Positions 19,543 to 41,900 of a stretch of 64,000 nt of DNA are shown piece by piece. The stretch spans positions 186,001 to 250,000 of the forward strand of contig JAUIAH010000004.1 in assembly GCA_030425385.1 (NCBI GenBank), written 5' to 3'. Every line of letters starts with the position of its first letter. The stretch's first letter is position 1. The stretch comes from Verrucomicrobiia bacterium. Its GTDB lineage: Bacteria > Verrucomicrobiota > Verrucomicrobiia > Verrucomicrobiales > DEV007. The position numbers and the translations under genes were made by a program. Under the pieces are notes generated by a model that was not told where the DNA came from, ran no database searches, and was given only the letters and a program-made list of their open reading frames with translations.

Positions 19543-19734
19543 GAGAGCAATCTGGTTAGGAAATAAAGACGAGAAGCGAAAGCTAAGAGGTGCTCTGTAT
19601 GGGCCTCACTTGTGAAAGTGAATGGAGATACAGCGGCGTCTCAGAGCTTTTAAATCGGAGCTTTGGGAAACCGAAACAATTTCAAAAGAGATCCTAAAGT
19701 GCTTATAGCTTTGGATCGAACTTACCGATTTTTT

Positions 19735-21285
<1,551 letters not shown>

Positions 21286-21332
21286 TGGAGTAATCGCTTA
21301 TAGATCGAGCTCACTCGATAGCGATAGGTCGA

Positions 21333-21354
21333 CGTCCTTGGCTTGCCAAGGACG
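21333..21354 (+). other. Stem-loop after 16S rRNA
   Basis: CGTCCTTGG-CTTG-CCAAGGACG forms a perfect 9-bp stem with a 4-nt loop in the spacer. No T-run follows, so it is more likely a processing structure than a terminator. Confidence 0.5.
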
Positions 21355-21483
21355 GTCCCACAGATCAACCGGGCAACCGGAAGTGAGGGACACAAACCTT
21401 TTACTGTATCGTTGAAGTTCGCCTTCACGAAGTTCATTCAGGGCACCTCTTAGTTTTCACTTCTCAATCAAATATCTGTTCGT

Positions 21484-21559
21484 GGGGGTATAGCTCAGTT
21501 GGTAGAGCGCCTGCTTTGCAAGCAGGATGTCATCGGTTCGAACCCGGTTACCTCCACCA
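21484..21559 (+). tRNA. tRNA-Ala (TGC)
   Basis: The acceptor GGGGGTA pairs with TACCTCC. The anticodon arm CCTGC-TTTGCAA-GCAGG carries TGC, the T-loop is TTCGAAC, and CCA is encoded (21557-21559). It is the first tRNA in the 16S-23S spacer. Confidence 0.97.
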
Positions 21560-21601
21560 TCTTGGAATGACGAACACTCGGATCTAGTCCTCAACTATTG
21601 A

Positions 21602-21678
21602 GGGTCTGTAGCTCAGTTGGTTAGAGCACCGCCTTGATAAGGCGGGGGTCACAGGTTCGAGCCCTGTCAGACCCACCA
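21602..21678 (+). tRNA. tRNA-Ile (GAT)
   Basis: The acceptor GGGTCTG pairs with CAGACCC. The anticodon arm CCGCC-TTGATAA-GGCGG carries GAT, the T-loop is TTCGAGC, and CCA is encoded. It is the second tRNA in the spacer, so the order is Ala then Ile. Confidence 0.97.
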
Positions 21679-21745
21679 ACGAGCAGTCTTAACAAATTTC
21701 TAATCCTACCAGACACGAAACATCGTGCGCTCTCTCAGAGTTCCC

Positions 21746-21755
21746 TGTTCTTTGA
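21746..21755 (+). promoter_or_regulatory. BoxA-like site before 23S
   Basis: TGTTCTTTGA lies in the spacer between tRNA-Ile and 23S, in the context CTTTGACAACTGCATA that is common in bacterial rrn spacers. Confidence 0.45.
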
Positions 21756-21796
21756 CAACTGCATATTAGGGTAAATACAACACAACAAAAGCTGAG

Positions 21797-21820
21797 TTTG
21801 CTTGCCGTCAGGCAAGCAAA
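21797..21820 (+). other. Stem-loop before 23S rRNA
   Basis: TTTGCTTGCC-GTCA-GGCAAGCAAA is a perfect 10-bp stem with a 4-nt loop. It lies about 100 nt before the 23S 5' end and is probably a processing or antitermination structure. Confidence 0.5.
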
Positions 21821-21921
21821 TCAAGTCTTAGTAATGTTCGAAAGAACGGCGAAAATAACCAAGCAAGCTTGGAAGCCAATCCTTACCCGAATCGTGCAAA
21901 CGAATTTCAAGTAAGGAGAAG

Positions 21922-24756
<2,835 letters not shown>

Positions 24757-24867
24757 CTTCTTCTAACTTGCTTGAAAAACCGTTCAAAAGCATGTGCTAA
24801 GACCGCTTTTAAAGTCGTTGTTCATCCTAAATATGCAGTTGTCAGAGAATCGCTCTCCTCTACGGAG

Positions 24868-24877
24868 TGTTCTTTGA
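24868..24877 (+). promoter_or_regulatory. BoxA-like site before 5S
   Basis: TGTTCTTTGA occurs again in the 23S-5S spacer, identical in ten bases to the site at 21746. Confidence 0.4.
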
Positions 24878-24930
24878 AATGTGGCCCGAAAGTGTCGCTA
24901 GAGTTCTGATTTCTGTCAGTGAAGTCAGCC

Positions 24931-25047
24931 CTCTGGTGATCATAGCAGCGTGGTACCACCCGATCCCATCCCGAACTCGGAAGTGAAACGCGCTCGCGCC
25001 GATGGTAGTGCGACGAAAGGTCGTGTGAGAGTAGGTCGTCGCCAGTT
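24931..25047 (+). rRNA. rrf: 5S ribosomal RNA
   Basis: Helix I is CTGGTGA near the start paired with TCGCCAG near the end. Conserved segments are CCCGATCCCATCCCGAACTCGG, seen as CCATCCCGAACTCGGAAGTG, and GCGCCGATGGTAGTGCGA with GTGAGAGTAGG. About 117 nt; ends estimated. Confidence 0.95.
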
Positions 25048-25133: not shown

Positions 25134-27419
25134 CTAACCCAATGGTACCCATTCCGCGTCCTGCTCGATACGCACGTGGCCATCTGACCAGCTGAGCCGA
25201 AGGGAGACCTGATGCAAACCTGTGTTTGCCAGGAGATAGTGCGCGAGCGCTGCCGTGACCACTTCTTCAATCGTACGCTGCAAGGGACGAGCTCCAAGCT
25301 TGGGATCGAATCCGGCCGCGCTGAGGGCATCAATTAGGGCCTCATCAGCGTGCAGGGTGATCTCTCGATCATGAAGGCCTTCTCGTTCGGCGAGTTCAGC
25401 GATCTCTTTGCGAGTGATTTCTCGGATAATCGTGTGTTCAAGAGGCGCGAAATAGAGAACCTCGTCCAACCGATTGAAGAATTCAGGCCGAAAGAATCGC
25501 TTGATGGCGTCGCGGTCGGTTCCGGCGGAGTCCGCTTCAAAACGGATGGTCTGACGCCCCTCGGCTCCCAAATTGGAGGTCATGACGATGAGCGCACTTT
25601 GAAAGGACGTCACTCGGCCCAAGGCGTCCGTGAGCCGCCCTTCCTCGAAGACGTTGAGTAGGACATCAAATACTTCCTCGGACGCTTTCTCAATCTCATC
25701 GAACAGAAGAACGGTGAATGGTTGTGCCCGCATCCGCCGAATGAGTTCGGAAGGCTTACCATAAGGATCTCCCAGGAGGCGCGCGCTGGCATCAAAGCTA
25801 GCATATTCACTCATGTCGAGCCGAACGATCCGTTCGCTCTCTGGCAGATTATCAAATAAGAGGTCGCCCATGGCACGAACAAGAGCCGTCTTACCCACAC
25901 CGGTAGGCCCCGCAAAGAGATAGACGCCTAACGGTCGGTTAGGATCATGGAGTCCTGCTTTGAAGCGGGTGAGGCAGGCGACCATGGAACGGATAGCTTC
26001 GGGCTGGCCAAGAATGCGACGGGAGAGCGATTCCGCATAAGTGTCAGCATCATAGGGGACCGCGTCGCTGAGAAATGCAGTAGGAAGCCCCGTTGCCCTG
26101 CCGAATTCTTCTTGGATCCACGCGGAGTCCAGCACATTTCGCCTCTGTTGCTTTGCGTGCTCCGCTGCCTTATTGAGAAAGTCGAGGGCTTTGCCAGGAA
26201 AGGCCGCATACGGCTGGAAACGTCGAAAGAGGCTGTGAGTGGATTGGCTCACACCAGCGTCGCATTCAAGTCGATGACGGTCGGCAAGGTGATCGCATCC
26301 CTTGGCAAGAAGGCGTCGTGCCGCGTCGTCATCTAGGGTTTCTACTTGGATCACGCGGAAAAGATCAACAAGACCAGGCAGCAGGCGGTCGCAGGCATCC
26401 ATTTCACTCGAAGTGGCCTCAACCACTAGTCGAATGCCACCCTCCTGGAGCAATGGAAGGATAAAAGCCCCGATGCTGGCTTCTGGACCAGATCCCCCCA
26501 CTTGCAGAAGCTCTAATAGATTGCTAAGACAAAGAATGCCTCGCAACTGAGCGAGTTCATGGAGCGCCGCCTCTAGCCGTTCCTCCCATTGGCCAAGATA
26601 AGCCATGCCTGCAATGATTCGCGCTCCATTGGAGTGCCAGAAGCGTGACGGCCGCATTCCCGTTTTGAAATCGCCAGGAACAGGTAGGCTGGCCTCCACT
26701 TGACGGGCAGCCTCTGCGAGAATGGCCGTCTTCCCACAGCCAGGTTCACCGACCAGGCAAAGATGACCATCATCCTGAGAGAGCCATTGTGCCAAGTCAC
26801 GGATCTCATCCTCACGTTCCCAAACCCGCGTGATCCGGGAGCGATCGCGTTGAACCAAAGGATCAGCAATCTTAGTCAAGGTTTCGATGTCTGCTTCATC
26901 GAAGAAGCTTCGCTTGGCCTCTCGCAGACTGACCACTATCTCGTCGAGAGCGATGACAGGAGGAGGAAGAAAGCGCGACAATTCCTGGGGCGTCTTGCCC
27001 TTGGCTCCGGCTCTCACATAGTGCGCGGCGAGCTTCGTGAGACTTCGCTGGTCATGATATTCAAAAGCGACGTCGATGGTGGGGAGCAGAGCCGTGAAAT
27101 GGCCGCTTTCCCGCTCTCCAGTCACACAGGGGAGTCGAAGCTCGACGGCATCTTTGCTAGCGTAGGTGGTCTCACCCTCTTGATACTCTGGGAAAAGCTT
27201 GAAAGTGAGCTTTCGTAACTTGGGCTTGAGAAAGTCAGGTGAGAACCAGTGTTTATCGTCCTCGTGAAGATGGGCAATGTAGCTGCTTAATTGACGAAGG
27301 ACATCCGAACGGGTTGCTCCCACAGCCACGCCGTCCTGATCTTCGTCTAACAAGCGTCCAGTGTAGAGACCAGCGTGGTCTTCCCATAGGATGACGGGGA
27401 ATCGGTAAGTGGTGGCCAT
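25134..27419 (-). CDS. ClpA/ClpC-like double AAA+ ATPase, short member of a three-gene cluster
   Basis: 761 residues from ATG 27419. D1 (about 200-440) has Walker A GEPGCGKTA and a pore-loop-like ARIIAGMAYLGQWEER with Tyr. Its Walker B place reads LCLSNLLEL instead of a D-E pair. D2 (about 465-740) has Walker A GPTGVGKTA (504-512), Walker B LLFDEIEKA, sensor 1 VMTSNLGA, an arginine finger in FFNRLDE and sensor 2 GARPLQR. The place of the ClpP-docking loop reads IRF. The GYVG pore loop of D2 is replaced by DPYGK. Residues 1-160 are not a Clp N-domain and look like two alpha-beta modules. Unlike its two neighbours it ends right after D2. It is last in the operon, 9 nt after the middle gene. It is more like an unfoldase or remodeller than a protease subunit with certain partner. 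Confidence 0.88.
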   Translation of the reverse strand: MATTYRFPVILWEDHAGLYTGRLLDEDQDGVAVGATRSDVLRQLSSYIAHLHEDDKHWFSPDFLKPKLRKLTFKLFPEYQEGETTYASKDAVELRLPCVTGERESGHFTALLPTIDVAFEYHDQRSLTKLAAHYVRAGAKGKTPQELSRFLPPPVIALDEIVVSLREAKRSFFDEADIETLTKIADPLVQRDRSRITRVWEREDEIRDLAQWLSQDDGHLCLVGEPGCGKTAILAEAARQVEASLPVPGDFKTGMRPSRFWHSNGARIIAGMAYLGQWEERLEAALHELAQLRGILCLSNLLELLQVGGSGPEASIGAFILPLLQEGGIRLVVEATSSEMDACDRLLPGLVDLFRVIQVETLDDDAARRLLAKGCDHLADRHRLECDAGVSQSTHSLFRRFQPYAAFPGKALDFLNKAAEHAKQQRRNVLDSAWIQEEFGRATGLPTAFLSDAVPYDADTYAESLSRRILGQPEAIRSMVACLTRFKAGLHDPNRPLGVYLFAGPTGVGKTALVRAMGDLLFDNLPESERIVRLDMSEYASFDASARLLGDPYGKPSELIRRMRAQPFTVLLFDEIEKASEEVFDVLLNVFEEGRLTDALGRVTSFQSALIVMTSNLGAEGRQTIRFEADSAGTDRDAIKRFFRPEFFNRLDEVLYFAPLEHTIIREITRKEIAELAEREGLHDREITLHADEALIDALSAAGFDPKLGARPLQRTIEEVVTAALAHYLLANTGLHQVSLRLSWSDGHVRIEQDAEWVPLG

Positions 27420-27428
27420 GTCCGTGCG

Positions 27429-30400
27429 CTATCCGAGTAGAAATTGAAATCTGCGAGAGACGGGAAGCGAAGCGTCGAGCAATGGCCACCATGAATGCTC
27501 AGGCTTTGTCAGGACCATCCCCGTGCGGAGATCTAGCGACCAGCCCATTTCATGATGCATTCGGATGATTGGAAGAGCCTGTTCAACCGAACGGTCGCAC
27601 GGACTCACCGTAATCGCGAAAAGGCGTCCATCATCGGCGTAGAAGAGGTGGGTACCTTCTTCCGAGGCTAACAACGAACGTGAAGCCAGACCAGGCATTA
27701 CGAGGTGCTTTCCCTCCAAGTGGGGGCGTTGACTCGGCTTAATAAGATTCTTCACAGGATCTTGGCGAGATGCGTCTTCGTGGAGAGATTTCCACGAACC
27801 GTCGAGAGGCGCGATCGTGGCCTCTGGAAAGAGCCGCAGGAGTTGCCGGACCCATTCCAACGCATTGAGGTAGAACGTGCTGGGTTCGCGAAGGAACTCG
27901 CGGGTAATCGCCTCGGCCGACAGGATCGGGTGATTTCCTCTCAAGAAGATCAATGATTGCTCGATGCATGGCCGAGCATCTCCGTAGATTTCGAAGCGAC
28001 TTACGCGGCGAATGAGTGCTTCTGTCAGAGTGTCAATAGGTTCGAGTGTCTCTGACTCTCGGGCAAAGGCCAAGAACGCATGGCGCGTGGTCGAGGCTTT
28101 GCTGATTTGTGTGAGGAGGTCTTCGCTGTTGGCGTCCTTCGGCAGCCGTGGAGGGAGGAGATCCTGGCTAGGGCGTCGTCCCCGGAGTGAGCGCTGTTGG
28201 CGTCGCCTTTCTTCAAACTCGACTTCCTGTTGGAGTCGATCACGAAGGACACGGATGTGTGCCAGGTCTTCTCGAAGCGCATAGAAAGGCAATTTCGACT
28301 GGAGGTCGTCCAGTCCCTCCATCCAGGAGTCAATCTTGGCGTCTGCCTCGTGGAGAAACGCATTTGTGATCTCGTGAAGGTGGCGTGCCTGCTCCAGACT
28401 CACCGGCTCCGGAAACAGGTTTGGTTCTCGAGAAACGGGAAGAAAGGCTTTCGTCGTGAGTTGGAGACGATCTTGCGAGGCCGTGAATCGAAGAATGGAG
28501 AGACCTGAGTAGGGGTGCTGGGTGAGAGACTGTGCAAGTGGCAAGACCAGCTCTGATTCGATGGCGCGTCGGAGAGCGCGGGCACCATACTCGGGCTCGA
28601 ACCCGCGGTCAGCTAAGTGTGGGTAGACAGTAGGATCGATCTCAAGCATGAGCTTTCGCGAGCGAATGCCGTGCCGCTGCATCGCGGACTCCGCCAATTG
28701 GCCGACCATCCGTTCAATGTGAGGGCGCGTCAGTTCGTGGAAAGCGATGACGCGGTCGATCCGGTTGAAGAGCTCAGGACGAAAGAAGGCTTCAGCTGCT
28801 TTCACATACACTGTGCTGCGATCATTGATCTCAGAGGCGAAACCAATGGGCACCTTGCTTTGCCGGGCACCGAGGTTCGACGTGAGGATTATCAACGTAT
28901 TCCCAAAGTCCGCCGTTCGTCCGCCGTGGTCGGTGAGGCGTGCATCTCCCAACACTTGCAGGAGCAGATCGAAGACATCGGGATGGGCCTTCTCAATTTC
29001 ATCGAGCAGCACCACGGCGTAGGGGCGTCGTCGGATGGCAGCGGTGAGCAGTCCGTGAGGCCGAAGGGCGTTTCCGGTGAGCCGATCAACCGCGTCAGGG
29101 CCTGCAAATTCATTCATATCGAAACGGATGAGGTGGTCGCTTGATCCGAAGACGAATTCAACTAACGCTTTGGCGCACTCGGTCTTGCCGACCCCAGTTG
29201 GCCCCAGAAAGAGGAGCGATGCCAGGGGCCGTCCGGGATCGGTGAGACGGGCCTTGGAGAGCATGATCGCATCCATCATGGCGTCCACAGCGGCTTCTTG
29301 TCCCACGATTCTGCCCTGAAAGAAGCGTTCCAACTCTGCCTTGGTGAGTCGGCTAGCTGGATCGAGAAAGCGCGTGTTGATCCCCGTCCGCTGTTGGAAA
29401 TGGGAGCGCACTTCATGCACAGTGATGGTTTTGTGAGAGCGACCGAGTTGCTTGAGAAAGTCGATCGCTTTCCCGGGAAAGGCGCGGGTCCGGACAAAGC
29501 GACGCTGTAGAGACATGATCAAGGGCAGGACTTCGGGTGCAATGCGAACGTTGCTTTCCGATTCCAGGTCTTGCATCACGCGGATGAGGATGCGAAGGGA
29601 CTCCGTTTCGGAAGGCTCCCGAATGGGAATCACTTGAAAGAGATCCGCGAACGCGCGATCCGATTCCCGAAGGCGACGCCAAGCTTCCGGGGTGGCTTCG
29701 GCGAGGACATCCATGGGGTGCTCTTGGAGTTCGACTTTGAGCAAGGCTCCAGCGGTAAGTTCACTTTGGGCTGATTTGCCTGCCTGGAAAAGCCCTAACA
29801 AATCTTCGAAGATCAAGAGGTGCCGCTTCTCGCGAACCTCTCGCATGATGGCGAAGAAGCGTTCCTCCCATTGTCCTACAAAACTCATCCCAGAAATGAG
29901 ACGCTGAGGATGGATCAACCACGCTTTCCTTTGGGAAGATGTTCCCTTGGCTGCAAAAGCCTTCATCCGAGCCTGGACAAATGCGTGAATGATGGCGGTC
30001 TTTCCCACTTGGCTTGGTCCGACGAGGATCACTGGGGCGCCTGACTTGGTGGTTCGAACAAAACGGTCTAGGAGCGCTGCGATCGTGGATTCTCGCCGAA
30101 GCGCCCGTGTGAGTCCGTGAGGGTAGAGCTGATCCAAACAGCGGCCCACGCGGGCGAGTTCTTCCGCCCCAGCCATGGCTTCGCCTCCTCCGAGTTGCGC
30201 GGCAGGGCGGAAGTCGTCATCCTCCGCGAGCCGCTGCTGAGCATTTGTGGAAAGAGTGATCTGGGTCAGCCGAACGGACTCCGGGCTCGTGGCATCCGAA
30301 AGGGAGAAGTCAGTGTCTTTCTGACGGATTCGCAAGGTCTCGGCGAGCGCTTCGGCAGCTCGGTCTTCCAATCGTTGCCCGGCAGGCCAGGTGAATGTGA

Positions 30401-30746
30401 GGTGTGCTTTGGGACAATGGATCAGCCGCTGATCGAGAGCATCGAATCCAACGAAGAGGAAGCGCCCTTCGAAAGTTTGTTTCTTGAGACGGATGGTCAG
30501 GGAGAGATGATGCCGCGTCATGGGAGGGTGAAATGACCAGGCCGCCACCGTGTCGTGGTCAGCGGAGGTCGCCTCACGGTTGAAGGCTTTGCGAAGGCGT
30601 TCTTCGAGCTGTGATAGGGCGCGGTCTTCGCGTTCGTGCGTGCCCTCGTACCCGGAGAAGAAGATGGGCTGCGCGTGGTAGTAGGGGCGCTCGTGCGCAG
30701 GTGTGCGCTTCTCAACGAAGACCGGTATGGAGATAGAAACAGCCAT
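27429..30746 (-). CDS. ClpA/ClpC-like double AAA+ ATPase with C-terminal extension, middle gene of cluster
   Basis: 1105 residues from ATG 30746, chosen because upstream codons overlap the previous gene and the only longer start is TTG. D1 has Walker A GPSQVGKTA (about 243-251), pore-loop-like LISGMSFVGQWEER and a Walker B of LLIFEDLL, with E-D rather than D-E. D2 has Walker A GPTGVGKTE (515-523), LLDEIEKAH, LTSNLGA, arginine finger FNRID and sensor 2 GARALRR. IGF (634-636) sits exactly where ClpA has IGL and ClpC VGF for ClpP docking. After D2 come about 110 residues of coiled coil (about 770-865). A last region (953-1053) resembles a degraded release-factor PCRF domain (LEWVRQLLRLF, SEEGTHLF). 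It is 7 nt after the first gene. Confidence 0.88.
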   Translation of the reverse strand: MAVSISIPVFVEKRTPAHERPYYHAQPIFFSGYEGTHEREDRALSQLEERLRKAFNREATSADHDTVAAWSFHPPMTRHHLSLTIRLKKQTFEGRFLFVGFDALDQRLIHCPKAHLTFTWPAGQRLEDRAAEALAETLRIRQKDTDFSLSDATSPESVRLTQITLSTNAQQRLAEDDDFRPAAQLGGGEAMAGAEELARVGRCLDQLYPHGLTRALRRESTIAALLDRFVRTTKSGAPVILVGPSQVGKTAIIHAFVQARMKAFAAKGTSSQRKAWLIHPQRLISGMSFVGQWEERFFAIMREVREKRHLLIFEDLLGLFQAGKSAQSELTAGALLKVELQEHPMDVLAEATPEAWRRLRESDRAFADLFQVIPIREPSETESLRILIRVMQDLESESNVRIAPEVLPLIMSLQRRFVRTRAFPGKAIDFLKQLGRSHKTITVHEVRSHFQQRTGINTRFLDPASRLTKAELERFFQGRIVGQEAAVDAMMDAIMLSKARLTDPGRPLASLLFLGPTGVGKTECAKALVEFVFGSSDHLIRFDMNEFAGPDAVDRLTGNALRPHGLLTAAIRRRPYAVVLLDEIEKAHPDVFDLLLQVLGDARLTDHGGRTADFGNTLIILTSNLGARQSKVPIGFASEINDRSTVYVKAAEAFFRPELFNRIDRVIAFHELTRPHIERMVGQLAESAMQRHGIRSRKLMLEIDPTVYPHLADRGFEPEYGARALRRAIESELVLPLAQSLTQHPYSGLSILRFTASQDRLQLTTKAFLPVSREPNLFPEPVSLEQARHLHEITNAFLHEADAKIDSWMEGLDDLQSKLPFYALREDLAHIRVLRDRLQQEVEFEERRRQQRSLRGRRPSQDLLPPRLPKDANSEDLLTQISKASTTRHAFLAFARESETLEPIDTLTEALIRRVSRFEIYGDARPCIEQSLIFLRGNHPILSAEAITREFLREPSTFYLNALEWVRQLLRLFPEATIAPLDGSWKSLHEDASRQDPVKNLIKPSQRPHLEGKHLVMPGLASRSLLASEEGTHLFYADDGRLFAITVSPCDRSVEQALPIIRMHHEMGWSLDLRTGMVLTKPEHSWWPLLDASLPVSRRFQFLLG

Positions 30747-30753
30747 GATGACG

Positions 30754-33700
30754 TCAGAGCGCGCGACGAGCCTCGTCGACAAGTTGGCGTTCGATCAAAG
30801 ACGCGAGCAGCTTGGAATCGAAGGCGCCCAGCTCGCGAGTGAGGCCTAGAACAGGATCGCGGTAGGAAGGGCGATCGCCCGATCTGAAAGCCCTGCGCAA
30901 CGGTTCGTGGACGAGATCGCGTCCGCGAGCTACTTCCGATAGAGAAAACGTTAGCAATTCTAACGGATCACTATAGACTTGCACGAATGCATGATGCTTG
31001 TTCGCCTTCGCATCTTCAAGAAGGTGGAGACCTGCTTCAGACCGCAAGCGCAAGACGGCCTGCTCTGAATGGATGCGGAGTCCGACCACGCCGTGGTCTT
31101 CGGTATGCGTGAGTGCTTGAAGAGCCGTCTGCGCGTCCTCGCCGGAGACGATCTCAGGTTTGGCCGCACGTTCACTCTCCGACTGGACCAGGAACTCTTT
31201 GGTCGGACGCTTGGCATAGAGCGCGACTTCGAGAGGGGCCGATGACCAGTGACTGGCAATATCAGCATAGGCCTGGCAGAGTTGCGAAAGCCATGAGTGG
31301 GCATCCGCTTGCAAGATCAAGGAGATGGCGGCGGGAGGCTCGGTGAAGAGTCGATACACGTCGATAAGGAGTTCCTGGCCTTGCGCGACAGGAGATTTCG
31401 GCAAGGAAGCACTCGTGCCATCTTCGGATTCCTGATAGAGTTGCAGAAGGCTGGCTTCTTCAAAGGATTGGCTTTCCGATAGGGCATTCTCCACATGAAG
31501 CAGCGCCTTCTGCAGTTCTTCAAGCCAGGTTTCCTGTTGCGGTGTCAGAGAGGGCGGGGTGCGTCGGCGTTTCTTGGGGGAGCGCCCCGTCGTGTGGGCG
31601 ATCGATTGGGCGCGGATCTTCAGGAGGCGGTCCGCTTGGCTCTGCAATTCCGTAACCATCGCACTGTGCGCAAGCTGATGAGCCCAGCGTCGTTGGACTG
31701 CGGCATTCTCGAGCCGTTCATGTGCACGGCGAAGTTCCTGCGTTGACTTGCTGAGAGATTCGCCGTCGGCGAGGTAGGTGACTTGGGTGTCTTGGCGAGG
31801 TGAGAGATCGAGGAGCAAGCGCCCGCGCTCCCTTGGTGTCTCGTTTAGAAAGTCGGCCGTGGGAAGGAGGAGGTGTCTCTCAATCGCCCGCTTGAGGGGT
31901 CGAGCGCCATAGCGGGGATCATATCCTATAGCGACCACTTGATCTAACAGAGGTGCGGAGACTTCCAGTTGCAAATGGCGATCGCGTAGTCCTTCGCGCT
32001 GGGTCGCGAGCTTGAGTTCACGTTGGGCAATGGCGGCCACGGAGGCTTGAGAAAGAGGCATGAACGGTACGAGGACGTCAATGCGATTGAAGAATTCCGG
32101 GCGAACGGCTTGGCGCAAGGCGCCAAGGAAGTGCTCCTTCACTGGCGTGATGTTGTCGTCGGACGGATGGCGAAACCCCAAGGTGCCTCGTTTGAAAGTG
32201 CTAGCGCCTAGGTTGGACGTCATGATGACCACCGCATTCGTAAAGTCGGCGTGGCGTCCGGCTCCATCAGTGAGGCGGCCCTCGCCTAACACTTGAAGAA
32301 AGAGATCGAAGATCTTGGGAGTGGCTTTCTCGAACTCATCTAGAAGAATCACCGAGAACGGTTGGTCCCTCACTGCGGCAGTGAGAAGGCCTTCATTTCC
32401 AGAGAAGCGATCACTGACAAGACGGCTCGCCGTGGACGGGCGGTGATATTCACTCATATCAAAGCGGACCAGGCGATCGCGGCTTTGATAGAGAAACAGA
32501 GCCAAAGTCTTGGCGAGCTCTGTCTTGCCGACACCCGTCGGTCCGAGAAAGAGAAAGGAACCTAACGGTTTGCCGGGACGGGCGAGACGCGTCTTGATTG
32601 TCGCCAGCATGCGCAAGACGGCGTCGACCGCTGGATCTTGAGCATGCACCCGCTCTTGGAACCAGGTCCGCACTGTCGCCACGTCAAACGGCTCGCCCTC
32701 ATCCAGGAGCCATCGCGGCAAACCCGTCTCCTCAGAAAAGGCCGTGAGGACGTCGGGAACCGTGCATGCGCGCGGTGGTGATTGAGTGCCAAGGAGGCGC
32801 TTTAAAAAGCGAACGGGACGCCCAGGATAGGCGGAGTAGGTCGCATAGCGCCGATGAAGCGCGTCGAGTTGAGCAAGCGCTTCGGGCGTCGTGGACGATC
32901 CAGAGGCGATGTGATCTAGAATGCGTCGACTGGCTTCAGGCGTTGGTTCTTCCATCTTAAGCACGCGAAAGGCATCCAGAATCTTGGGATCTTGCGCTTC
33001 GATCGCGCCTAACTGTTGCGTGGTGCATTCTGATAGGGCTAATAAGTCCCCACGCACCATCGCTGGACGGAGAAAGGAAGCAATGCTTTCCGACTGGGAC
33101 ACGCTTTGCCCCACCTGCATCAACTCGAAGAGGTTGCCGAGATAAAGAGCGAGACCACCCTCCTGCGCTTCTCGGATCAAGCGCTGACAGCGTTCCTGCC
33201 ACATACCGAATCCTGTTTGGCCTGCGACCAAGCGTCCGCCGCTGGTGTGCCAGACGGGGCGCTTGATCTTCCCTCGGCGAATGGCCTCCTTGATAATCGC
33301 GGTCTTGCCAATGCCGGGACGCCCAACCAGGAGAATGCTTCGGGCTTGGTCACCGGCGAACCACTGCGCGAGGCGATCCACCCATTCCTCGCGTTCAAAG
33401 GCGGGTGGCATGGCGTCAGGAGCGAGCTTGGTCGCAACCTTCTCTAACACCTTCTCGTGTGAATCGGAATCGCCGTAGATGGCCTCGTATCGCTCCGTCG
33501 TCGTCAGTGGCTGAGCATTCCACGGAAGGGATTCCACGACCAATTCCTGGCCACGTTGGATGCGCGCGAGACGAAGAAGACTCCGAGCAAGCCCGCGGCG
33601 TTTGATGGCAAAGAGTGCTTGTTCCTCAATCGCCGCCGGCAAGGCTTCATGATCGCGACACCAGACTTCGATCCCCAGGGCTGGGAGATACGCGAGCAGG

Positions 33701-34032
33701 GCTTCAGTCCCATGCGCCCATTCAATCATCGGAAACGTCAGCGTCACCGGCTCCTCCCACAGTCGCGACGGACGGACTGGGGAAACTTCCAACGACACAT
33801 TGCGCACGGTGTAGCTCTCTGGAGCCTGGCGGGTTCCGAGTTTGTCCAGTGATTGGAGCCTTGTCACGGCCTGCGCCAGTTTCTTGGAACGCACCGCGAG
33901 TCTGTCAGGGTCGTGACCCAGTGTCCGAAACTCCGGAAAGAAGAGGAGTTCATGCAACCACTGTTCCCTCCCTTCGGGTGTCGTTTCTAGCACTTGCGCA
34001 ATGGACAAAACCTGAAGATGCAAATCCGGCAT
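30754..34032 (-). CDS. ClpA/ClpC-like double AAA+ ATPase with C-terminal PCRF-like domain, first gene of cluster
   Basis: 1092 residues from ATG 34032; a TTG at 34074 is less likely. The N-terminal 195 residues are not a Clp N-domain. D1 has Walker A GRPGIGKTA (237-245) and RLVAGQTGFGMWQER. The Walker B place reads LYLGNLFEL, so acidic catalytic residues are missing. D2 is intact: Walker A GPTGVGKTE (497-505), VILLDEFEKA, MTSNLGA, FFNRID and GARPLKR. LGF (618-620) occupies the ClpP-docking position. Residues about 760-870 are helical. About 901-1021 align by eye with the PCRF domain of RF1/RF2 (ILQADAHSWLSQLCQAY, LRSEAGLHLL, HHAFVQV). No GGQ is present. It leads a minus-strand operon of three paralogues and is divergent from a secreted CotH protein. 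Confidence 0.9.
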   Translation of the reverse strand: MPDLHLQVLSIAQVLETTPEGREQWLHELLFFPEFRTLGHDPDRLAVRSKKLAQAVTRLQSLDKLGTRQAPESYTVRNVSLEVSPVRPSRLWEEPVTLTFPMIEWAHGTEALLAYLPALGIEVWCRDHEALPAAIEEQALFAIKRRGLARSLLRLARIQRGQELVVESLPWNAQPLTTTERYEAIYGDSDSHEKVLEKVATKLAPDAMPPAFEREEWVDRLAQWFAGDQARSILLVGRPGIGKTAIIKEAIRRGKIKRPVWHTSGGRLVAGQTGFGMWQERCQRLIREAQEGGLALYLGNLFELMQVGQSVSQSESIASFLRPAMVRGDLLALSECTTQQLGAIEAQDPKILDAFRVLKMEEPTPEASRRILDHIASGSSTTPEALAQLDALHRRYATYSAYPGRPVRFLKRLLGTQSPPRACTVPDVLTAFSEETGLPRWLLDEGEPFDVATVRTWFQERVHAQDPAVDAVLRMLATIKTRLARPGKPLGSFLFLGPTGVGKTELAKTLALFLYQSRDRLVRFDMSEYHRPSTASRLVSDRFSGNEGLLTAAVRDQPFSVILLDEFEKATPKIFDLFLQVLGEGRLTDGAGRHADFTNAVVIMTSNLGASTFKRGTLGFRHPSDDNITPVKEHFLGALRQAVRPEFFNRIDVLVPFMPLSQASVAAIAQRELKLATQREGLRDRHLQLEVSAPLLDQVVAIGYDPRYGARPLKRAIERHLLLPTADFLNETPRERGRLLLDLSPRQDTQVTYLADGESLSKSTQELRRAHERLENAAVQRRWAHQLAHSAMVTELQSQADRLLKIRAQSIAHTTGRSPKKRRRTPPSLTPQQETWLEELQKALLHVENALSESQSFEEASLLQLYQESEDGTSASLPKSPVAQGQELLIDVYRLFTEPPAAISLILQADAHSWLSQLCQAYADIASHWSSAPLEVALYAKRPTKEFLVQSESERAAKPEIVSGEDAQTALQALTHTEDHGVVGLRIHSEQAVLRLRSEAGLHLLEDAKANKHHAFVQVYSDPLELLTFSLSEVARGRDLVHEPLRRAFRSGDRPSYRDPVLGLTRELGAFDSKLLASLIERQLVDEARRAL

Positions 34033-34156: not shown

Positions 34157-37100
34157 ATGCGGTTGGGGAAATTGAAAGTCGTCGGGCCATGGCCCTGCTA
34201 TATGATCGTGATTCTGTTGGGGGCCATCGCTTGGACCCCAGTGCGAGCCGAGGGGCCCTTGGTCATCAATGAGATTCTCTATCACGTCAGGGAGTCCGAG
34301 GTGAAAGAGGATCGGGCGGCCGAATTTGTGGAACTCTATCACGCCGGAGACGCTGCCATTTCGTTAGAGGGATGGGCCTTCACCTCCGGGATTCGGTATC
34401 GCTTTCCTCGTGTCACTGTCGAGCCGGGATCCTTTCTTGTCGTGGCGGCGGATGTGGAGACCTTTCGGGAACGGCATCCCGAGGTCGCCATGGTCTTCGG
34501 TCCCTTCCAAGGGCGTCTGAGCAACTCGGGAGAGAGACTCAAGCTAGAAGATGCCGATGGAGACACGGCTGATGAATTGACCTATGCCGATAGTGGTCGC
34601 TGGGCGAGGCGTGTCAGTGTGAGGCCCAATGGTTATGATGATTGGATTTGGGAAGCACCCCACGATGGCGAAGGCGCATCCCTCTCCCTCATTTCCCCCT
34701 CGGCAAATAATGCCCACGGGGAATTCTGGAAACCGAGCGAGCAATCGGGTGGCACCCCTGGAGGGCCGAATGATACGCTGACAGATGTCCTGCCTCCCGT
34801 GGTGACGGAGTTGACTCATGATCCTATCATTCCTACTTCGAGACAGGAAGTGACCGTCAGGGCATCCGTAGAGCACGATCGCGCCGTGAGCATGCGTTTG
34901 CACTATCGGCGTGATGGGAGTGCGCGTTTCGAAGCCATTCCGATGCGCGACGGCAAGGGCTTGCTTCCCGCGATGCCTAACGGAACCGTCATCCAGTATG
35001 TGGTCGAGGTCACGGATGACCGTGGCGTGTCAACCACGTATCCTTTGGTGCAGCGGGACGACCAGAGCGGCGCATGGGCAAAGCGTCAGGCCACGTGCCT
35101 TTATCAAGTGGATGATGCGCATGATTTAAAGGTCGAGCAGGGACCAGGGAGAAAGCCGCTCTATCGCTTTATTAGCACGGCAGCAGAATTGGCGATGCTG
35201 CGCCAGTTGAATGGGATCTCTGGAAGAAACGCCACCTACAACAATCACCTGCACGGGGCGCTGATCATCGTGGATGGCGTGGAGCAAACGGTGAAGCAGC
35301 ACGTTTCCGCACGCATTCGGGGGCATGGTAGCCGTTCGGCCTTTCCGCCTGGCCTGCGCATCAACTTTCCGAGTGATGATCGTCTCGACGGGATTGCCGA
35401 TTTGAATCTGAATAGCCAGTACACGCATTCGCAATCGCTCGGGGCGGCTTTGCACCAAGTCCTGGGAGTGGCCTCGGCGGCACGCTCGACGCCGATACAT
35501 CTTCGCATGAATGGTGAGGATTGGACGCGTCGAGGCGCACCTCAATTCGGCTGCTACGTTCGCAATGAGGTACTGGATAGTGACTATGTGGACGCTCATT
35601 TCCCAGGCGAGGAGGATGGGAATCTCTATCGCTTGGTGGGGAATGCCTATCTCAACGAACAGCAGACAGATTCAAACTTCCGGTCTGAGTACAACAAGCG
35701 CAATCACGCAACTGAAGATGACTATTCGGATATAGTTAGGTTGATTGAGACCCTTCGGGAGACGGAGCCTGCAGAGACCTACTTTGACCGGGTGAATACG
35801 ATCATGGACATCGAGCAATGGGCGCGATACATTGCTGTAGACGCGCTGCTTTGCAATACGGAAGGGGGGATGCCAACGGGAAGGGGAGATGACGTCGCCC
35901 TGTTCTGTCCCAAGGGAGGACGCTTTCAACTCATCCCCTATGACCTTGATTCCATTCTCGGCATGGGCGATGCGGAGCAGGGGATTCAGAAGAGTGTCTT
36001 TGACTATGGGAACATGGCAGGATTGCGGGCCCTCTTTCAGAATCCTCAATTTCTCCAGCTCTTCACGGAGCAGATCGTCGACTTGACGGATACCGTCTAC
36101 AAACCGGAGATCCTCAACCGTGTGATCGATGATCTGTGGCAAGATTGGATTCCTGAGCAAGAGAAAGCGAAAGTGAAACGCTTTCTCGAGCGGCGCCGGG
36201 AAGTTGTTCTGAGCCAGATCAAGGGGAACACCATGATAGGATCGACTTTGGATCGGGAGAAAGGATTCTACCGCGCTTCCTCGACCACCTTTGCGCTCTA
36301 TGGACGCTTTGATCGGTCCTCGATAGCAGAGGTCACGGTTGGCGGCATGGCGCCGCAACTCTTTCAAGATACCGGGACGTGGATCATGGTGTCGGATCAG
36401 TTAGGCTCAGTCATCCGCCCGGGCATGAATCAGTTGCCGGTGGTCATGCGAGACACCCGCGGGAATGTCGTTCAGCAAGAGCTGATGCGTGTTTGGCTCG
36501 ACAATGGCGCGGTGAAGAAAGTCGCGGGCGAACTCGTGGCGAAGGGAGAGGAGCGGGTGTGGAAAGCGGACGAAGGGCCCTATCTCATCGAGGGGGGAGT
36601 GGCGATTCCCGCTGGCGGCACCTTGAGAATAGAGCCGGGAGTGACCGTTTATGGAAGAGATGATAGTGTGTTGTCAGTTTCTGGGACCTTGCGTGTTGAG
36701 GGGCGTGAAGGCGAGCGCGTGACCTTTGCCAGGGATCCCAGTGCAGAGGATGTGAAGGGATGGAATGGCCTGCGGATCCAGGGCGATGGACAGGTCCTCT
36801 TGCGGCATGGTGACTTTCTTGATCTCGCAGGACCGATCACCTTTTCGGGACGGCGATTGATCATCGATGGCTGCTCCTTGCATTGGCAGAAGGCGGAGGG
36901 TATCCGCTTAACAGAGGGCAACCTGATCGTGCGAGATTCTGCGTTGAATCAACGAGGAGCTGACGACCAACCCGTGATTGATCAAGCAGGTGGTGCACTA
37001 ACATTAATGCGTTCTAGCATCCATCGAGAGGGAAGGGGCGCGGCGGTGCGCTCGACGGGGGAGCCTTACCTCTTTGGTAACGTGTTCGAGCAACGCTTCG

Positions 37101-38881
37101 CGCCGGTGTTATCCTTGTATAAGGGTTACGTGGACGGCAATGATTTCCGTTTCACCGGGAAGGTGGCGCAACCTGCTGTGGAAAGCGGAGCGCAAGTGAT
37201 GCTCACACGGAATCGCCTCCAAGGAGCGGGACTCTTCATGCAACCCGATCCCCAGGGGGGAGGGAATGAACGTGTGTTAGGTGAGATGAAGGATCGATCC
37301 TTGGCGGTGGCGGATATTCGATTTGTCCAGCAGTCCCCACAGCGGACGGCAGCGTCGACGCACCGCTTTACCGTGGCGGGGCACGGGTTGGTTGGTTTCC
37401 GCTATCGTCTCGACGACCACGCTTGGAGCGAGTGGACGTCGATTTCCAAAGACCAAGAGACCTTCGAAGTGACGGCGGGGCCGGGCAAACACACGGTGAG
37501 CGTGCTAGGCAAACACGTGTCCGGTCGGCAGATGGAACCCGCGGAGGCAGTTCAGTCTCGCCCCTTCGAGGTGATTCCCGACCTGCCTCCGGTGGTGCTT
37601 AGTGAAGTGTTAGCGATCAATCGGACGGCTTATGAAAGCAAGCGGAATGCCTGGGATTACGTGGAGCTGAGAAATTTCAGCTCAAAGGCGGTGGAGCTCG
37701 CGGGCTATGCTTTGAGTGATGATCCTGAGGACTTGCGTGCTTTTGTGTTCTCGGAGAAAGCGGTCATCGGAGGGGACAGCTACTTTCTGCAATCGTTGAC
37801 TCCGGATACCAGTGGCTTTGCTTTGAATGGGGATGGTGATGAGATCATCTTCTCAGACCCCAATGGAAAGATCATTGATAGGGTGCGTTTCGGTCTGCAG
37901 TTGCCCGATCTTTCCATCAGTCAGTCTGACGAAGGAGAGTGGTCGCTTTCGGAGGCCACGCCGGGCTTTGAGAATCGGATGAAAGCTCTAGCGGAAGTGC
38001 CACAGCTTTCGATCTCTGAGTGGTATGCAGCACCTGGGCGTCATGTGGCCGAGGAGTTTATCGAACTTCACAATGCGTCACCTGGTGCCGTCGACATCGG
38101 CGGCTACACGCTTACGGATCGAGTCACCAATCCAAAGGTTTGGCGTTCTCTGCCGCCACTTAGTTACCTTGCGAAAGATGCCTACACTGTCTTCTACACG
38201 GATGGCGAGACCGACCGTGGGGCAAAGCATTTGGATTTCCGTCAGGCAAATGAAGGCGAAGTGATCGGCCTCATGGATCCCCAAGGGCGACTGGTGGATC
38301 ATGCCGTCTATGGGACGCAGGCTGCGGGCTATGCACAAAGGCGAGGCACCGATGGCCGCCTAACTTATGAGAGGCCGAGCCCTGGAGCAGCGGAACCGGC
38401 ATCCATGAATGATACCGCGCTCGCCGTGCTTGAGGGCATTCGGATCACTGAGATCCACTATCATCCTGCCGAAGATGAGGACGAAGAGTTCATTGAATTG
38501 ACGAATGTGAGTGCGCGTTCATTACCGTTGCAAGGGGTGGCATTCACCAATGGGATCGAGTTCGTGTTCGGCGACTTGACCTTGCATCGCGGAGAACGCG
38601 TGGTCGTTGTTCGTGATCGGAGTGCCTTTCAACAGCGATACGGTAGCGACGTCGCGATCGCGGGCGCCTACGAGGGAAAACTGAGTAACAAAGGCGAGAA
38701 GATCGAACTGGTGACGGCTACCGGAGAGAAGATGGTGGAGTTTGAGTACTCGGATGGATGGCACCGCAAGACTGATGGCGGTGGGTATTCACTAGCAATT
38801 GCGGATGTGGAGAATCCGCGCTTGGGTGCTCGCGGCGCTTGGCGGGAGAGTGCAGAAATCGGAGGGTCTCCAGGGCGTTGA
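34157..38881 (+). CDS. Giant secreted protein: lamin-tail, CotH kinase-like, beta-helix, three more lamin-tail domains
   Basis: 1574 residues with a signal peptide ending near WTPVRAEG. The order is a lamin-tail domain (about 35-165; INEILYH, FVELYHAG), a linker, then a CotH-like domain (about 345-680; RIRGHGSRS, and IPYDLDS at about 592). A right-handed beta-helix-like region follows (about 800-1000; GTLRIEPGVTVYG). Three further lamin-tail domains start near 1145, 1281 and 1427 (FIELHN and FIELTN). CotH domains are atypical kinases that can phosphorylate secreted proteins. Lamin-tail domains are Ig-like and often pair with extracellular enzymes. The molecule is probably exported and surface-bound; the substrate is unknown. 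Its ATG coincides with the predicted transcription start. Confidence 0.87.
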   Translation: MRLGKLKVVGPWPCYMIVILLGAIAWTPVRAEGPLVINEILYHVRESEVKEDRAAEFVELYHAGDAAISLEGWAFTSGIRYRFPRVTVEPGSFLVVAADVETFRERHPEVAMVFGPFQGRLSNSGERLKLEDADGDTADELTYADSGRWARRVSVRPNGYDDWIWEAPHDGEGASLSLISPSANNAHGEFWKPSEQSGGTPGGPNDTLTDVLPPVVTELTHDPIIPTSRQEVTVRASVEHDRAVSMRLHYRRDGSARFEAIPMRDGKGLLPAMPNGTVIQYVVEVTDDRGVSTTYPLVQRDDQSGAWAKRQATCLYQVDDAHDLKVEQGPGRKPLYRFISTAAELAMLRQLNGISGRNATYNNHLHGALIIVDGVEQTVKQHVSARIRGHGSRSAFPPGLRINFPSDDRLDGIADLNLNSQYTHSQSLGAALHQVLGVASAARSTPIHLRMNGEDWTRRGAPQFGCYVRNEVLDSDYVDAHFPGEEDGNLYRLVGNAYLNEQQTDSNFRSEYNKRNHATEDDYSDIVRLIETLRETEPAETYFDRVNTIMDIEQWARYIAVDALLCNTEGGMPTGRGDDVALFCPKGGRFQLIPYDLDSILGMGDAEQGIQKSVFDYGNMAGLRALFQNPQFLQLFTEQIVDLTDTVYKPEILNRVIDDLWQDWIPEQEKAKVKRFLERRREVVLSQIKGNTMIGSTLDREKGFYRASSTTFALYGRFDRSSIAEVTVGGMAPQLFQDTGTWIMVSDQLGSVIRPGMNQLPVVMRDTRGNVVQQELMRVWLDNGAVKKVAGELVAKGEERVWKADEGPYLIEGGVAIPAGGTLRIEPGVTVYGRDDSVLSVSGTLRVEGREGERVTFARDPSAEDVKGWNGLRIQGDGQVLLRHGDFLDLAGPITFSGRRLIIDGCSLHWQKAEGIRLTEGNLIVRDSALNQRGADDQPVIDQAGGALTLMRSSIHREGRGAAVRSTGEPYLFGNVFEQRFAPVLSLYKGYVDGNDFRFTGKVAQPAVESGAQVMLTRNRLQGAGLFMQPDPQGGGNERVLGEMKDRSLAVADIRFVQQSPQRTAASTHRFTVAGHGLVGFRYRLDDHAWSEWTSISKDQETFEVTAGPGKHTVSVLGKHVSGRQMEPAEAVQSRPFEVIPDLPPVVLSEVLAINRTAYESKRNAWDYVELRNFSSKAVELAGYALSDDPEDLRAFVFSEKAVIGGDSYFLQSLTPDTSGFALNGDGDEIIFSDPNGKIIDRVRFGLQLPDLSISQSDEGEWSLSEATPGFENRMKALAEVPQLSISEWYAAPGRHVAEEFIELHNASPGAVDIGGYTLTDRVTNPKVWRSLPPLSYLAKDAYTVFYTDGETDRGAKHLDFRQANEGEVIGLMDPQGRLVDHAVYGTQAAGYAQRRGTDGRLTYERPSPGAAEPASMNDTALAVLEGIRITEIHYHPAEDEDEEFIELTNVSARSLPLQGVAFTNGIEFVFGDLTLHRGERVVVVRDRSAFQQRYGSDVAIAGAYEGKLSNKGEKIELVTATGEKMVEFEYSDGWHRKTDGGGYSLAIADVENPRLGARGAWRESAEIGGSPGR

Positions 38882-38907: not shown

Positions 38908-41900
38908 ATGAGATATCAGACTAGCAAATGCATGCACCTGTTCGCCGCGGTTTCGTGGTGTTGGGTGGCGGTGATCGCACCGGCGCAGGAATTCTTTACC
39001 CAACGTTTGGGTGGTAACTTCGTTCAGTTGGGGCACCCGCCCATGGTTGCTGGTGCGGTGGCGCCAAGTCCATCGGCAGAAGTCCTGCGGCGGCTTTTCG
39101 AAGGAGATGAGACCGACGCCTTGGATCACGCCATCGCGCATCTGCGAGGATTCATCGATGCCTTCTTGGCGATTTCTCCAGACGAGAGGCAAGCTTTCGA
39201 TCAACAACGATCGTTCGTGCAGTTTGTCAGGGCGTATGGGTTGCAGGACCGCTTGTTACAACGGTTGCAATCTCAAGCGCCCGCGGATCCTGAAGATCGG
39301 CTTGCTGCGGCCGCTCTGGCTGATATGTTAGGCGAAAGTGCGATTGCTCTGAGCCGCTACGCTGCGGTGCTTGAGGCAGATCCATCTTTGGATGGTGCTC
39401 GTGCTCGGCTCATTTGGTTGGCGATTGAGGAGGAAGGGGTTCCGGCAGCGGTAGCCGCGATGGATGGCTTGTCGACAAAGGCCTTGCTCCCGATGGGCGC
39501 GACCCTGCGGAGCCGCATCCAGATGACGCCTGAACAAGAATACGAGCGGCGTTTGGACTATTTCGAAGTGCTCGCCGCTTACTTCAATCGGCTTGATCCT
39601 GCCACTTATGTTGCCGCGGATTGGTTGGGGAGCTTGATCGATAACTATTTGGGTCAAGCAAACTGGAGTGAGACCCTCCGCTTTCCGGATCTCTACACGA
39701 CAGGAAACTATTCAATGGGCTACAACAGTCCGGCAATCGAGAAGCGTTCCCAGGAAGTGGAGGCGCGACGGGCGAAGGTTCACGCTGACCTCTGTCGAGC
39801 GCTCTTGCGAATGCCGCAGTTTGCGGAGGAAGGCTTTCGGCGCTTGTCAGGATTGGCCATGAGGCGAGAGGAAGGTCTGACAGAACTCGAATCGGAGGCG
39901 CGCCGGATCCTCCTTGAGATGCCTGCCGCACCCAAACGGCCTGAGTCGGAAACTGGATCGGTGCCTCCTGTGATGCCTTACCGTGAGGACTGGGTGCCAT
40001 TTCTTTCTCCAGCGGAGTTCCTTGTGCAACGCGCCATCGAGCGGGGCGAGGTGGAGGCGCTCGACGGGAAACTGCTTAAACCGCTGGTGGCTGCTGGCAA
40101 TGAGGATGCGGCGGCTTTGGTTCGGGAGATCATCTCGCTGTCATTGCTAGAAGGTGAAGCGTTTGTGACGCGGGTCGCAGCGCTGATGCGTCGCGGAATC
40201 GGCGGAATCACCCCTACGCAGTTGATGGTTCGTGCCTTGGCCATGCGCGGTGAAGAGCAGGAAGTGGATTTGGGGCCAGCCATTCTTGCGTATCTCGAGG
40301 CCACCCGGGATCATCCCTATCAGTCACCTTCCTTTGTCTACGAGTATGGGAATCACCAGTTAGCTGAGGGGCAAGAGCGTTTTCGTGCCTTTATCGAAGA
40401 CGCTGCTGTGGCGATGCTAGGGCCTAAGGAGGGACAGGCGGCGTTGGTGGCTGCCAACCCGAATCCCAACGCGTCTAGCACGTCCTCAGCGGCCAATCGA
40501 GTGCCTAATTTCACCGCTTTCCTTGGGCAAATGATGCAGTCCACCGCCTCCATCGCCGCGCCTTTGAAGAAGGCGTTTGCTCTGGGGCTCGTGCACCCGG
40601 CCAACTACCAGCTTCCCAACCGCGTGCAGAACAGCTTGCGTTACTATCGCTTTGCGAACGAATCGGAGGCGCTCATGCTATTTCTCACGGAGATGGGATT
40701 GCTGGGCGATCTGGAGACGATTGAGTTCTACCCCATGAACAACATTTCCAGAGGAACTCTCTTTGGACTCGTCTACTACAATCTCTGTCGCGTGGATAGC
40801 GACGAGAAAGAGCGCGTGATGGACGTGATCGCCGCCTATCCTGAGGATACCTTCGGTAAGGCGATGCTTCTCTCTGCCGCTGAGGCGAGTTCAAGCAGTT
40901 CATCTCAGCGAACCACCCTAACAAAAGCACTGGAACCGTTCGTGGAGAAGATCACGGCGTTGCCGGAGGCGAAGCAAGACGAGTTCCGCTATTGGTATAG
41001 TCAGGCAGTGAGCAACAACACGCTGCCATCGTCTCTGGAGAGAGAGGCGCCCAAGGTGGCCGCCTGGTACTCGCCCTGGCGCAACTCAGAGGCGGCTGGG
41101 AAACTGCGGGCCCGATTTCAAGGCAATGCCCATGGCATCACTTTGGAAGCGTTTCTCAACACGCCGCATCGAGCGACTTTTGATGTGCAGAACGGTCTGG
41201 ACTATGCCGCCCAGCAAGCGCTGCAAGGGATGCGACGCGATGGTAGCAATGCCGATTATGTTCGGATCGTAGACCATTATGTGGAACTAGCAAAGCAACC
41301 TATGCCGAGCCAAGGCATGCAGCCGTATGTCAATGCCACACCGTTGATCCAGCAGTGGCTGGCGAGTCACCGTGCCTTGGAGGCGCTCGGGGCGACGATG
41401 GCCTTGATGGATCGCCATGAGATTTCTTTGGATGCGCAGATCGCCATGTGGGTGACGAACGCATTGAATGGAGAATCATTCAGCGATCCTGCGGAGACCG
41501 CCAAGCGATTGCTGGCCGCGAGTGAGGGCGCCGCCGTCGAGGCATTCACCCCATTCTTCGCCGAACGCTTTGCCAATCTCACGCCTGCGGTCAGAGGGCG
41601 CGTGTTCGCGTGGGCAAAGGAGGCTTCGGGGTCGGCCCTGGGAGCATCATGGCAACACGCTGCGGGATTGGCTCAGGGGGAGACCACCGCCATTGCGTGG
41701 TGGAAAGCGTATTTCACCGATCCCGACAGGACATTTCCCGAGAGACTGCAGGCGGCGCAACGGGTGGCGCCGATGGCCAGCCGCGGGCAGGCGTGGGCCG
41801 TGGTGGAAGCCATCATTGTTTGTCTGGATGGGGCTTGGAAGGCTGAGGAACCCGTCGTCGTTCCTGGCGAAGTGCCCAGCGGTCTGCTCCAGCCGCTGCT

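Follow-up and report, generated by a model that had tools for sequence, protein, structure and literature searches.

A three-gene locus encoding Clp-like AAA+ proteins

The window analysed here is a 64,000-nucleotide stretch of DNA from a Verrucomicrobiia bacterium (assembly GCA_030425385.1, contig JAUIAH010000004.1, positions 186,001 to 250,000, forward strand). It contains three adjacent genes for Clp-like AAA+ proteins, named A, B and C and together called the triad (Table 1). A first-pass annotation of the window had described three same-strand genes separated by gaps of 7 and 9 nucleotides, encoding 1092, 1105 and 761 residues, and the minus-strand open reading frames agree with this description. 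The start codons of A, B and C were chosen as those fitting the homologues, and the lengths were recomputed.

Table 1. The triad, its parts, its neighbours in the window and the members of its sister family
Feature	Residues	Positions in the window	Strand	Remarks
Gene A	1092 in total	30754-34032	minus	N-domain, predicted inactive D1, predicted active D2, putative release-factor-derived C-terminal domain
A N-terminal domain	1-205	33418-34032	minus	homologous to the B and C N-domains; not Clp_N
A D1	about 206-430 (boundary approximate)	32743-33417	minus	Walker A retained, GN-type in place of Walker B DE, no arginine finger
A D2 and D2-small	about 431-735 (boundary approximate)	31828-32742	minus	catalytic residues intact, GYVG missing
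A, Pfam AAA_2	488-653
A, Pfam ClpB_D2-small	660-729
A C-terminal extension	740-1092	30757-31815	minus	putatively derived from release factor 2, without GGQ domain
Gene B	1105 in total	27429-30746	minus	architecture as in A
B N-terminal domain	1-215	30102-30746	minus	aligned to A and C by hhalign
B D1-D2	about 216-750	28497-30101	minus	D1: DD replaces Walker B DE, no arginine finger
B D2		within 28497-30101	minus	catalytic residues intact, GYVG missing, IGF loop
B C-terminal extension	760-1105	27432-28469	minus	putatively derived from release factor 2, without GGQ domain
Gene C	761 in total	25134-27419	minus	N-domain, predicted inactive D1, predicted active D2, no C-terminal extension
C N-terminal domain	1-198	26826-27419	minus	first 50 residues resemble HicB-type antitoxins
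Ribosomal RNA operon		19732-25047	plus	complete (16S, two transfer RNAs, 23S, 5S); converges on the triad
Lamin-tail/CotH gene	1574 in total	34157-38881	plus	four lamin-tail domains plus a CotH kinase domain; reads away from gene A
Next gene	1832 in total	38914-44412	plus	no Pfam match at E 1e-5
Sister family members				L267, L268, L269, L254-L258, L260, L270

The ClpA and ClpB models span both D1 and D2 in all three proteins, as the first-pass annotation had proposed for the AAA+ layout. The scores on these models were 264-358 bits, compared with curated cut-offs of 993 and 1232. The tandem D1-D2 followed by ClpB_D2-small places A, B and C in the Clp/Hsp100 AAA+ superfamily. A tree built from 61 D1-D2 sequences recovered A, B and C as one clade each, every one with a support of 100 in the Shimodaira-Hasegawa-like approximate likelihood ratio test (SH-aLRT), and the three together were supported by 94. 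When divergent members and the single-gene sister family described below were included (74 rows), the SH-aLRT values were 81 for A, 100 for B, 100 for C and 96 for the three together, and A, B and C were separate from the ClpA, ClpB and ClpC clades. Both are quick trees without bootstraps. According to these trees, the three genes represent sister clades within a single family, and the paralogy suggested earlier for the window is borne out.

The N-terminal regions had been described as different from Clp N-domains, and no Clp N-domain was found in the isolated regions of A, B and C by Pfam search at expectation values (E) up to 10, the sole match being one chance-level match in C. The Clp N-domain was also absent from all 22 Pfam matches of full-length B, from the best 25 of the 36 matches of A and from the best 25 of the 41 matches of C. 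The N-domains were aligned with 39/42 A, 37/40 B and 30/32 C homologues plus the window protein in each case. They are homologous to each other by hhalign (A-B, E 3e-7; A-C, E 2.6e-9; B-C, E 1e-5). When six filtered HicB-like proteins were compared with the N-domain profiles, the first 50 residues of C matched with E 2.4e-6, followed by A (0.0037) and B (0.043), and the controls gave E 0.13 or worse. The first HicB alignment had 8 rows including doubtful ones, and the repeat on the 6 filtered rows gave a stronger match. The apparent resemblance of the start of the C N-domain to HicB-type antitoxins is a lead only.

D1 lacks the hydrolysis residues and D2 lacks the GYVG pore loop

The motifs were counted in 43 A, 41 B and 33 C rows. 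In D1, the Walker A lysine was present in every row. The catalytic glutamate of Walker B was replaced in every row, by Asn, Ser, Pro, Gln or Ala in A, by Asp in all B rows and by Asn, Ser, Arg, Gly or Asp (mostly Asn or Ser) in C. The RR arginine finger was gone from the A, B and C rows, and the aromatic residue of the D1 pore loop was mostly retained. The divergence of D1 noted in the window holds across the three families, and the motifs indicate that D1 keeps nucleotide binding without the residues for hydrolysis.

In D2, Walker A, Walker B, sensor 2 and the NR arginine were retained in every row, and the RPE arginine was present in all rows except two of B. The GYVG pore loop (pattern G[YFW][VILK]G) was found in 0/43 A, 0/41 B and 0/33 C rows, that is 0/117, in contrast to 27/27 for ClpB/ClpC. 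D2 had been called intact, which is right for the catalytic residues and wrong for the pore loop. A ClpP-type hydrophobic-G-hydrophobic loop was present in D2 of 33/43 A, 40/41 B and 27/33 C rows; in the reference rows it was found in 11/11 ClpC-like and 0/12 ClpB-like sequences. Given what is kept and what is lost in the two domains, the D1 tier is probably a nucleotide-bound scaffold, and D2 a motor without the usual grip.

Probable release-factor ancestry of the A and B extensions

Profiles of the C-terminal extensions were built from 40 A rows (39/42 homologues plus the window protein) and 39 B rows (38/40 plus the window protein). In a search of the complete set of PDB sequences with E up to 10, release factors accounted for 22 of the 28 matches of the A profile, and the top match was release factor 2 (RF2, E 8.5e-4). 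For the B profile, release factors made up 23 of 26 matches, again with RF2 on top (E 1.5e-4). The alignment between extension and RF2 is colinear and skips the GGQ domain. In profile-profile comparison with 20 filtered release factor 1 (RF1) and RF2 sequences, the A extension matched with E 2.8e-8 and the B extension with E 2.8e-5, while three N-domain profiles used as controls gave E 0.17 or worse. The first release-factor alignment had 29 rows including doubtful ones, and the repeat on the 20 filtered rows gave a stronger match, although the filter also discarded some probably genuine rows.

The GGQ tripeptide, counted by its occurrence regardless of position, was found in 1/40 A and 1/39 B extension rows. 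A GRxHTS-type stop-codon-loop string was found in 0/40 A, 0/39 B and 0/8 sister rows, a pattern that was itself present in only 6/20 true release factors. These comparisons indicate that the A and B extensions very probably descend from peptide chain release factor 2, without its GGQ (peptidyl-tRNA hydrolase) domain.

A single-gene sister family

The sister family consists of single-gene Clp proteins with a release-factor C-terminus, and is mostly planctomycetal. Ten members were collected: 3 come from the order of the window's genome and 7 from a set of 11 planctomycetal candidates, of which the other 4 were lost in open-reading-frame calling to longer antisense frames. The sister family forms a clade with A, B and C (support 100 in the 74-row tree), and its D1 is altered and GYVG is missing as in the triad. 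L267 and L270 were excluded from the extension alignment by a position cut-off. Among the remaining eight extensions, the Pfam PCRF domain was matched by 8/8, with 6/8 above the cut-off. The C-terminal profile of the sister family matched RF1/RF2 with E 2.3e-24, the A extension with E 6.9e-10 and the B extension with E 4.1e-12. Because the sister family matches both PCRF and the two extensions, the release-factor ancestry of A and B also follows by transitivity. The C-terminal domain of the sister family has no GGQ. The sister N-termini vary by eye, with a membrane-helix-like segment in some and repeat-like helices in others, and two proteins begin at D1.

In the simplest history, a Clp ATPase would have fused with a release factor and been triplicated; A and B would then have lost the GGQ domain, and C the entire release-factor part. 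The domain loss proposed for C is an argument from parsimony.

Distribution, gene order and co-occurrence

In the order of the window's genome, 17/189 genomes carry A, and 17/17 of these also carry B and C. Sixteen of them gave a full match to A with E 5e-175 or better, and in G024 A is split over two contigs. In G020, G045, G185, G162 and G024, C is on another contig; the G185 copy is interrupted by two in-frame stops. The searched genomes of the window's genus (G001-G003) have no triad. In samples of whole phyla, 3/288 genomes of Verrucomicrobiota and 49/294 of Planctomycetota matched at E 1e-75 or better, and 21 of the latter reached the A level of 1e-120. A named-genome contig scan yielded 56 loci; among the first 30 of these, A scored best at 29. 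The records are titled Verrucomicrobia, Planctomycetes, Acidobacteria, Lentisphaerae and a few others; they are mostly metagenome-assembled, and single titles may be wrong.

Wherever the genes are adjacent, the order is A>B>C on one strand, as seen at 39 A-B and 25 B-C junctions (L073 and L128 are one genome counted twice). Conservation of this order was the check proposed with the first-pass annotation, and the same order recurs across genomes in Verrucomicrobiota and beyond, so that chance is excluded. A 4-base overlap was present at 16/39 A-B junctions. In 16 genomes C was not beside A, and it was found elsewhere in 11 of them (one partial). C was not found in the other five genomes, and in four of these a contig ends at or close to A or B. 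B was searched in 11 genomes and found in 9, and the other two have truncated contigs. Outside the window's order, G443 and G452 have A, B and C on three different contigs with all three present. In genus g24 there are two divergent versions of the triad, which are separated alike in the A, B and C trees. Because the versions split in the same way in all three trees, the triads were transferred as whole units. The distribution is patchy, and the transfer of the triads is horizontal.

Independent occurrence of the three genes had been named beforehand as evidence against a shared machine. It was mostly not observed, since the triad was complete in 17/17 A-positive genomes of the window's order; the exceptions are G446 and G012, the latter having only a decayed C with three in-frame stops, with A and B not found. 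The complete co-occurrence and the dispersed, still complete triads of G443 and G452 favour the shared machine put forward in the first-pass annotation. Short of proof, co-occurrence supports a hetero-oligomer.

Genomic surroundings, mobile elements and defence systems

The 5S gene of the ribosomal RNA operon ends 87 nucleotides before the stop end of gene C. Elsewhere in the window's genome there are four small proteins (L006, L007, L008 and G000:C27:125290-126072; open frames of 305-351 residues) whose similarity to Clp ATPases is confined to the D2 half. L006 and L007 have near-identical neighbours, as if duplicated. The window's genome also has two strong ClpP genes (G000:C33 and G000:C73), and the triad-less relative G001 has two as well.

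An origin from phages or plasmids was rejected: 158 phage records matched B and 2284 plasmid records matched A, and 0 of either covered 80%. The strong match to phrog_4871 is general, because the same family gives 1020 bits for E. coli ClpA and 1106 bits for E. coli ClpB. A defence system was also rejected, since the PADLOC matches (DolB, PDC-M37B and mad8) were weak and limited to the AAA+ domain, with no conserved neighbours.

A proposed remodelling ring and alternative explanations

A, B and C may be subunits of one hetero-oligomeric, two-tier, D2-driven remodelling ring, which may be targeted to the ribosome and could dock on ClpP. This whole proposal is tentative, plausible and somewhat short of probable. 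Its parts differ in strength: hetero-oligomerisation in the sense of a mixed ring is likely, ribosome targeting by the A and B extensions is a reasonable and still uncertain suggestion, and ClpP docking is rather doubtful. These grades, and that given to the ancestry of the extensions, are judgements. The three subunits would mix in one ring, in which the D1 tier may serve as an ATP-bound scaffold and D2 as the motor. The pseudo-release-factor domains would bring the ring to the ribosome or to a translation factor, and the D2 motor could there pull apart or remodel its client, which might be a nascent chain that has stalled. Docking on ClpP may be enabled by the hydrophobic-G-F loop. Because the D2 pore aromatic is missing, the ring probably does not thread clients as ClpA does.

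Several observations weigh against the proposed ring. Single A and B extension sequences match no release-factor Pfam model, so that the case for their ancestry rests on the profiles and the sister family. The window's own C has IRF at the site of the ClpP loop and not a G-F loop. G446 has A and B, no C was found in it, and neither A nor B is near a contig end. Beyond the triad itself, no gene is conserved between phyla, and neither the ribosomal RNA operon nor the lamin-tail/CotH gene accompanies it elsewhere. When 14 triad-positive genomes were compared with 14 triad-negative genomes, ClpP was near-universal and uncorrelated with the triad: the family was matched in 28/28 genomes and ClpP itself in 27/28, with only a weak match and no proper ClpP in G119. 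Transfer-messenger RNA was over the cut-off in 24/28 genomes and equally common with and without the triad, missing in G111 and G119 (triad present) and in G001 and G008 (triad absent). At least three RF-1 matches were found in 28/28 genomes, with or without the triad. A dedicated ClpP or a replacement for ribosome rescue was rejected, as triad-positive and triad-negative genomes showed no difference.

These results leave room for a hetero-oligomer whose release-factor domain is a scaffold reused for a partner or client elsewhere, such as in a stress or conflict response. The canonical termination and rescue genes are unaffected by the triad, the decoding and catalytic parts of the domain are gone or unrecognisable, with the GGQ domain skipped in the RF2 alignment, and the extensions are poorly conserved (mean column identity of 22-23%). 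The patchy distribution and horizontal transfer also fit such a role. However, the release-factor domain is retained in A, in B and in the whole sampled sister family, which argues for a kept interaction, and a conflict response finds no conserved conflict or defence neighbour and only PADLOC matches far weaker than the general ClpB match. Reuse as a scaffold is considered unlikely on balance. It is less likely still that each gene forms its own homohexamer and that the three act separately or in sequence as a staged machine. Each subunit could work alone because each D2 has a full catalytic set including its own arginine finger, and known Clp ATPases act as homohexamers. In contrast, the same D1 and D2 features are lost in all three proteins, the A-B reading frames are coupled, and the genes are transferred together and co-occur even when dispersed; in one genome (G012), the C left where A and B were not found is decayed.

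It is hardly credible that the three are ordinary ClpB, ClpC or ClpA chaperones misread through divergence. The best curated models are indeed ClpB and ClpA, but the scores stay well below both cut-offs, a Clp N-domain, a hydrolysis-competent D1 and GYVG are all missing, and the proteins form a separate clade. The window's genome also has its own canonical copies. The first-pass annotation had named ordinary ClpB/ClpC as the identity that would speak against its view, and the motif counts together with the missing Clp N-domain contradict that identity.

Significance and comparison with known systems

Compared with the first-pass annotation, the present analysis adds three points: both extensions probably descend from a release factor, the D2 pore loop is lost, and there is a single-gene sister family. 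No fusion of a Clp protein with a release factor and no three-Clp operon was described in the literature searched, which was without preprints and with few subscription papers; the published work found deals with Clp systems already known, with the evolution of release factors and with AAA+ conflict systems, and passages of PMC6514570 and PMC7159879 contain no Clp-release-factor fusion. If the proposed ring is true, Clp-type ATPases would gain a heteromeric branch with one dead tier and one tier without pore loops, a natural exception on which to test whether threading of clients always depends on D2 pore loops. The fusion of an AAA+ motor to a release-factor mimic would in that case also provide a previously unknown way to rescue ribosomes or control translation in Planctomycetota, Verrucomicrobiota and Acidobacteriota, phyla in which such factors are little studied. 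Two release-factor-derived domains on Clp subunits hint at a connection, so far unrecognised, of protein unfolding with the ribosome. The three genes form one operon, which makes direct tests of the finding feasible.

The triad resembles several known systems in part. Paralogous AAA+ subunits in one ring are found in the eukaryotic proteasome, in the Rpt1-6 ring (PMC8134078). That ring belongs to another AAA+ clade and has one ATPase tier and a proteasome partner, whereas for the triad a mixed ring is a proposal. In eukaryotic ribosome quality control, the release-factor-like protein Vms1/ANKZF1 is paired with the AAA+ unfoldase Cdc48/p97 (PMC6514570). Its release-factor fold is unrelated (archaeo-eukaryotic type), the two are separate proteins and the system is eukaryotic, so the likeness is an analogy only. 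By this analogy, the triad might be a bacterial fused counterpart of Vms1-Cdc48, a mixed Clp ring in which dead RF2 mimics would enter the A site or the factor-binding centre, D2 motors would pull on stalled or aberrant complexes and clients would be handed to ClpP, with the single-gene sister family as the homomeric ancestor type; this extended model is speculative and improbable as a whole.

With ClpB/Hsp104 the triad shares D2 and D2-small, but it has no middle domain, a different N-domain and, in most rows, a ClpP-type loop. The A and B extensions share with RF2 and RF1, by profile, the helical PCRF domain, the E-G-H strand and the C-terminal R-Y...D motif; they are fused to a Clp ATPase, are very divergent and lack the GGQ domain. 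With ClpA/ClpC the triad shares a D1-D2 layout in which the middle domain of ClpB is missing (the alignment to ClpA is uninterrupted) and, in most A, B and C rows, a ClpP-type loop of ClpA length. Compared with ClpA/ClpC, the triad has a D1 without catalytic glutamate and arginine finger, a D2 without GYVG and no Clp N-domain, and it consists of three paralogues instead of one, two of which carry a release-factor domain.

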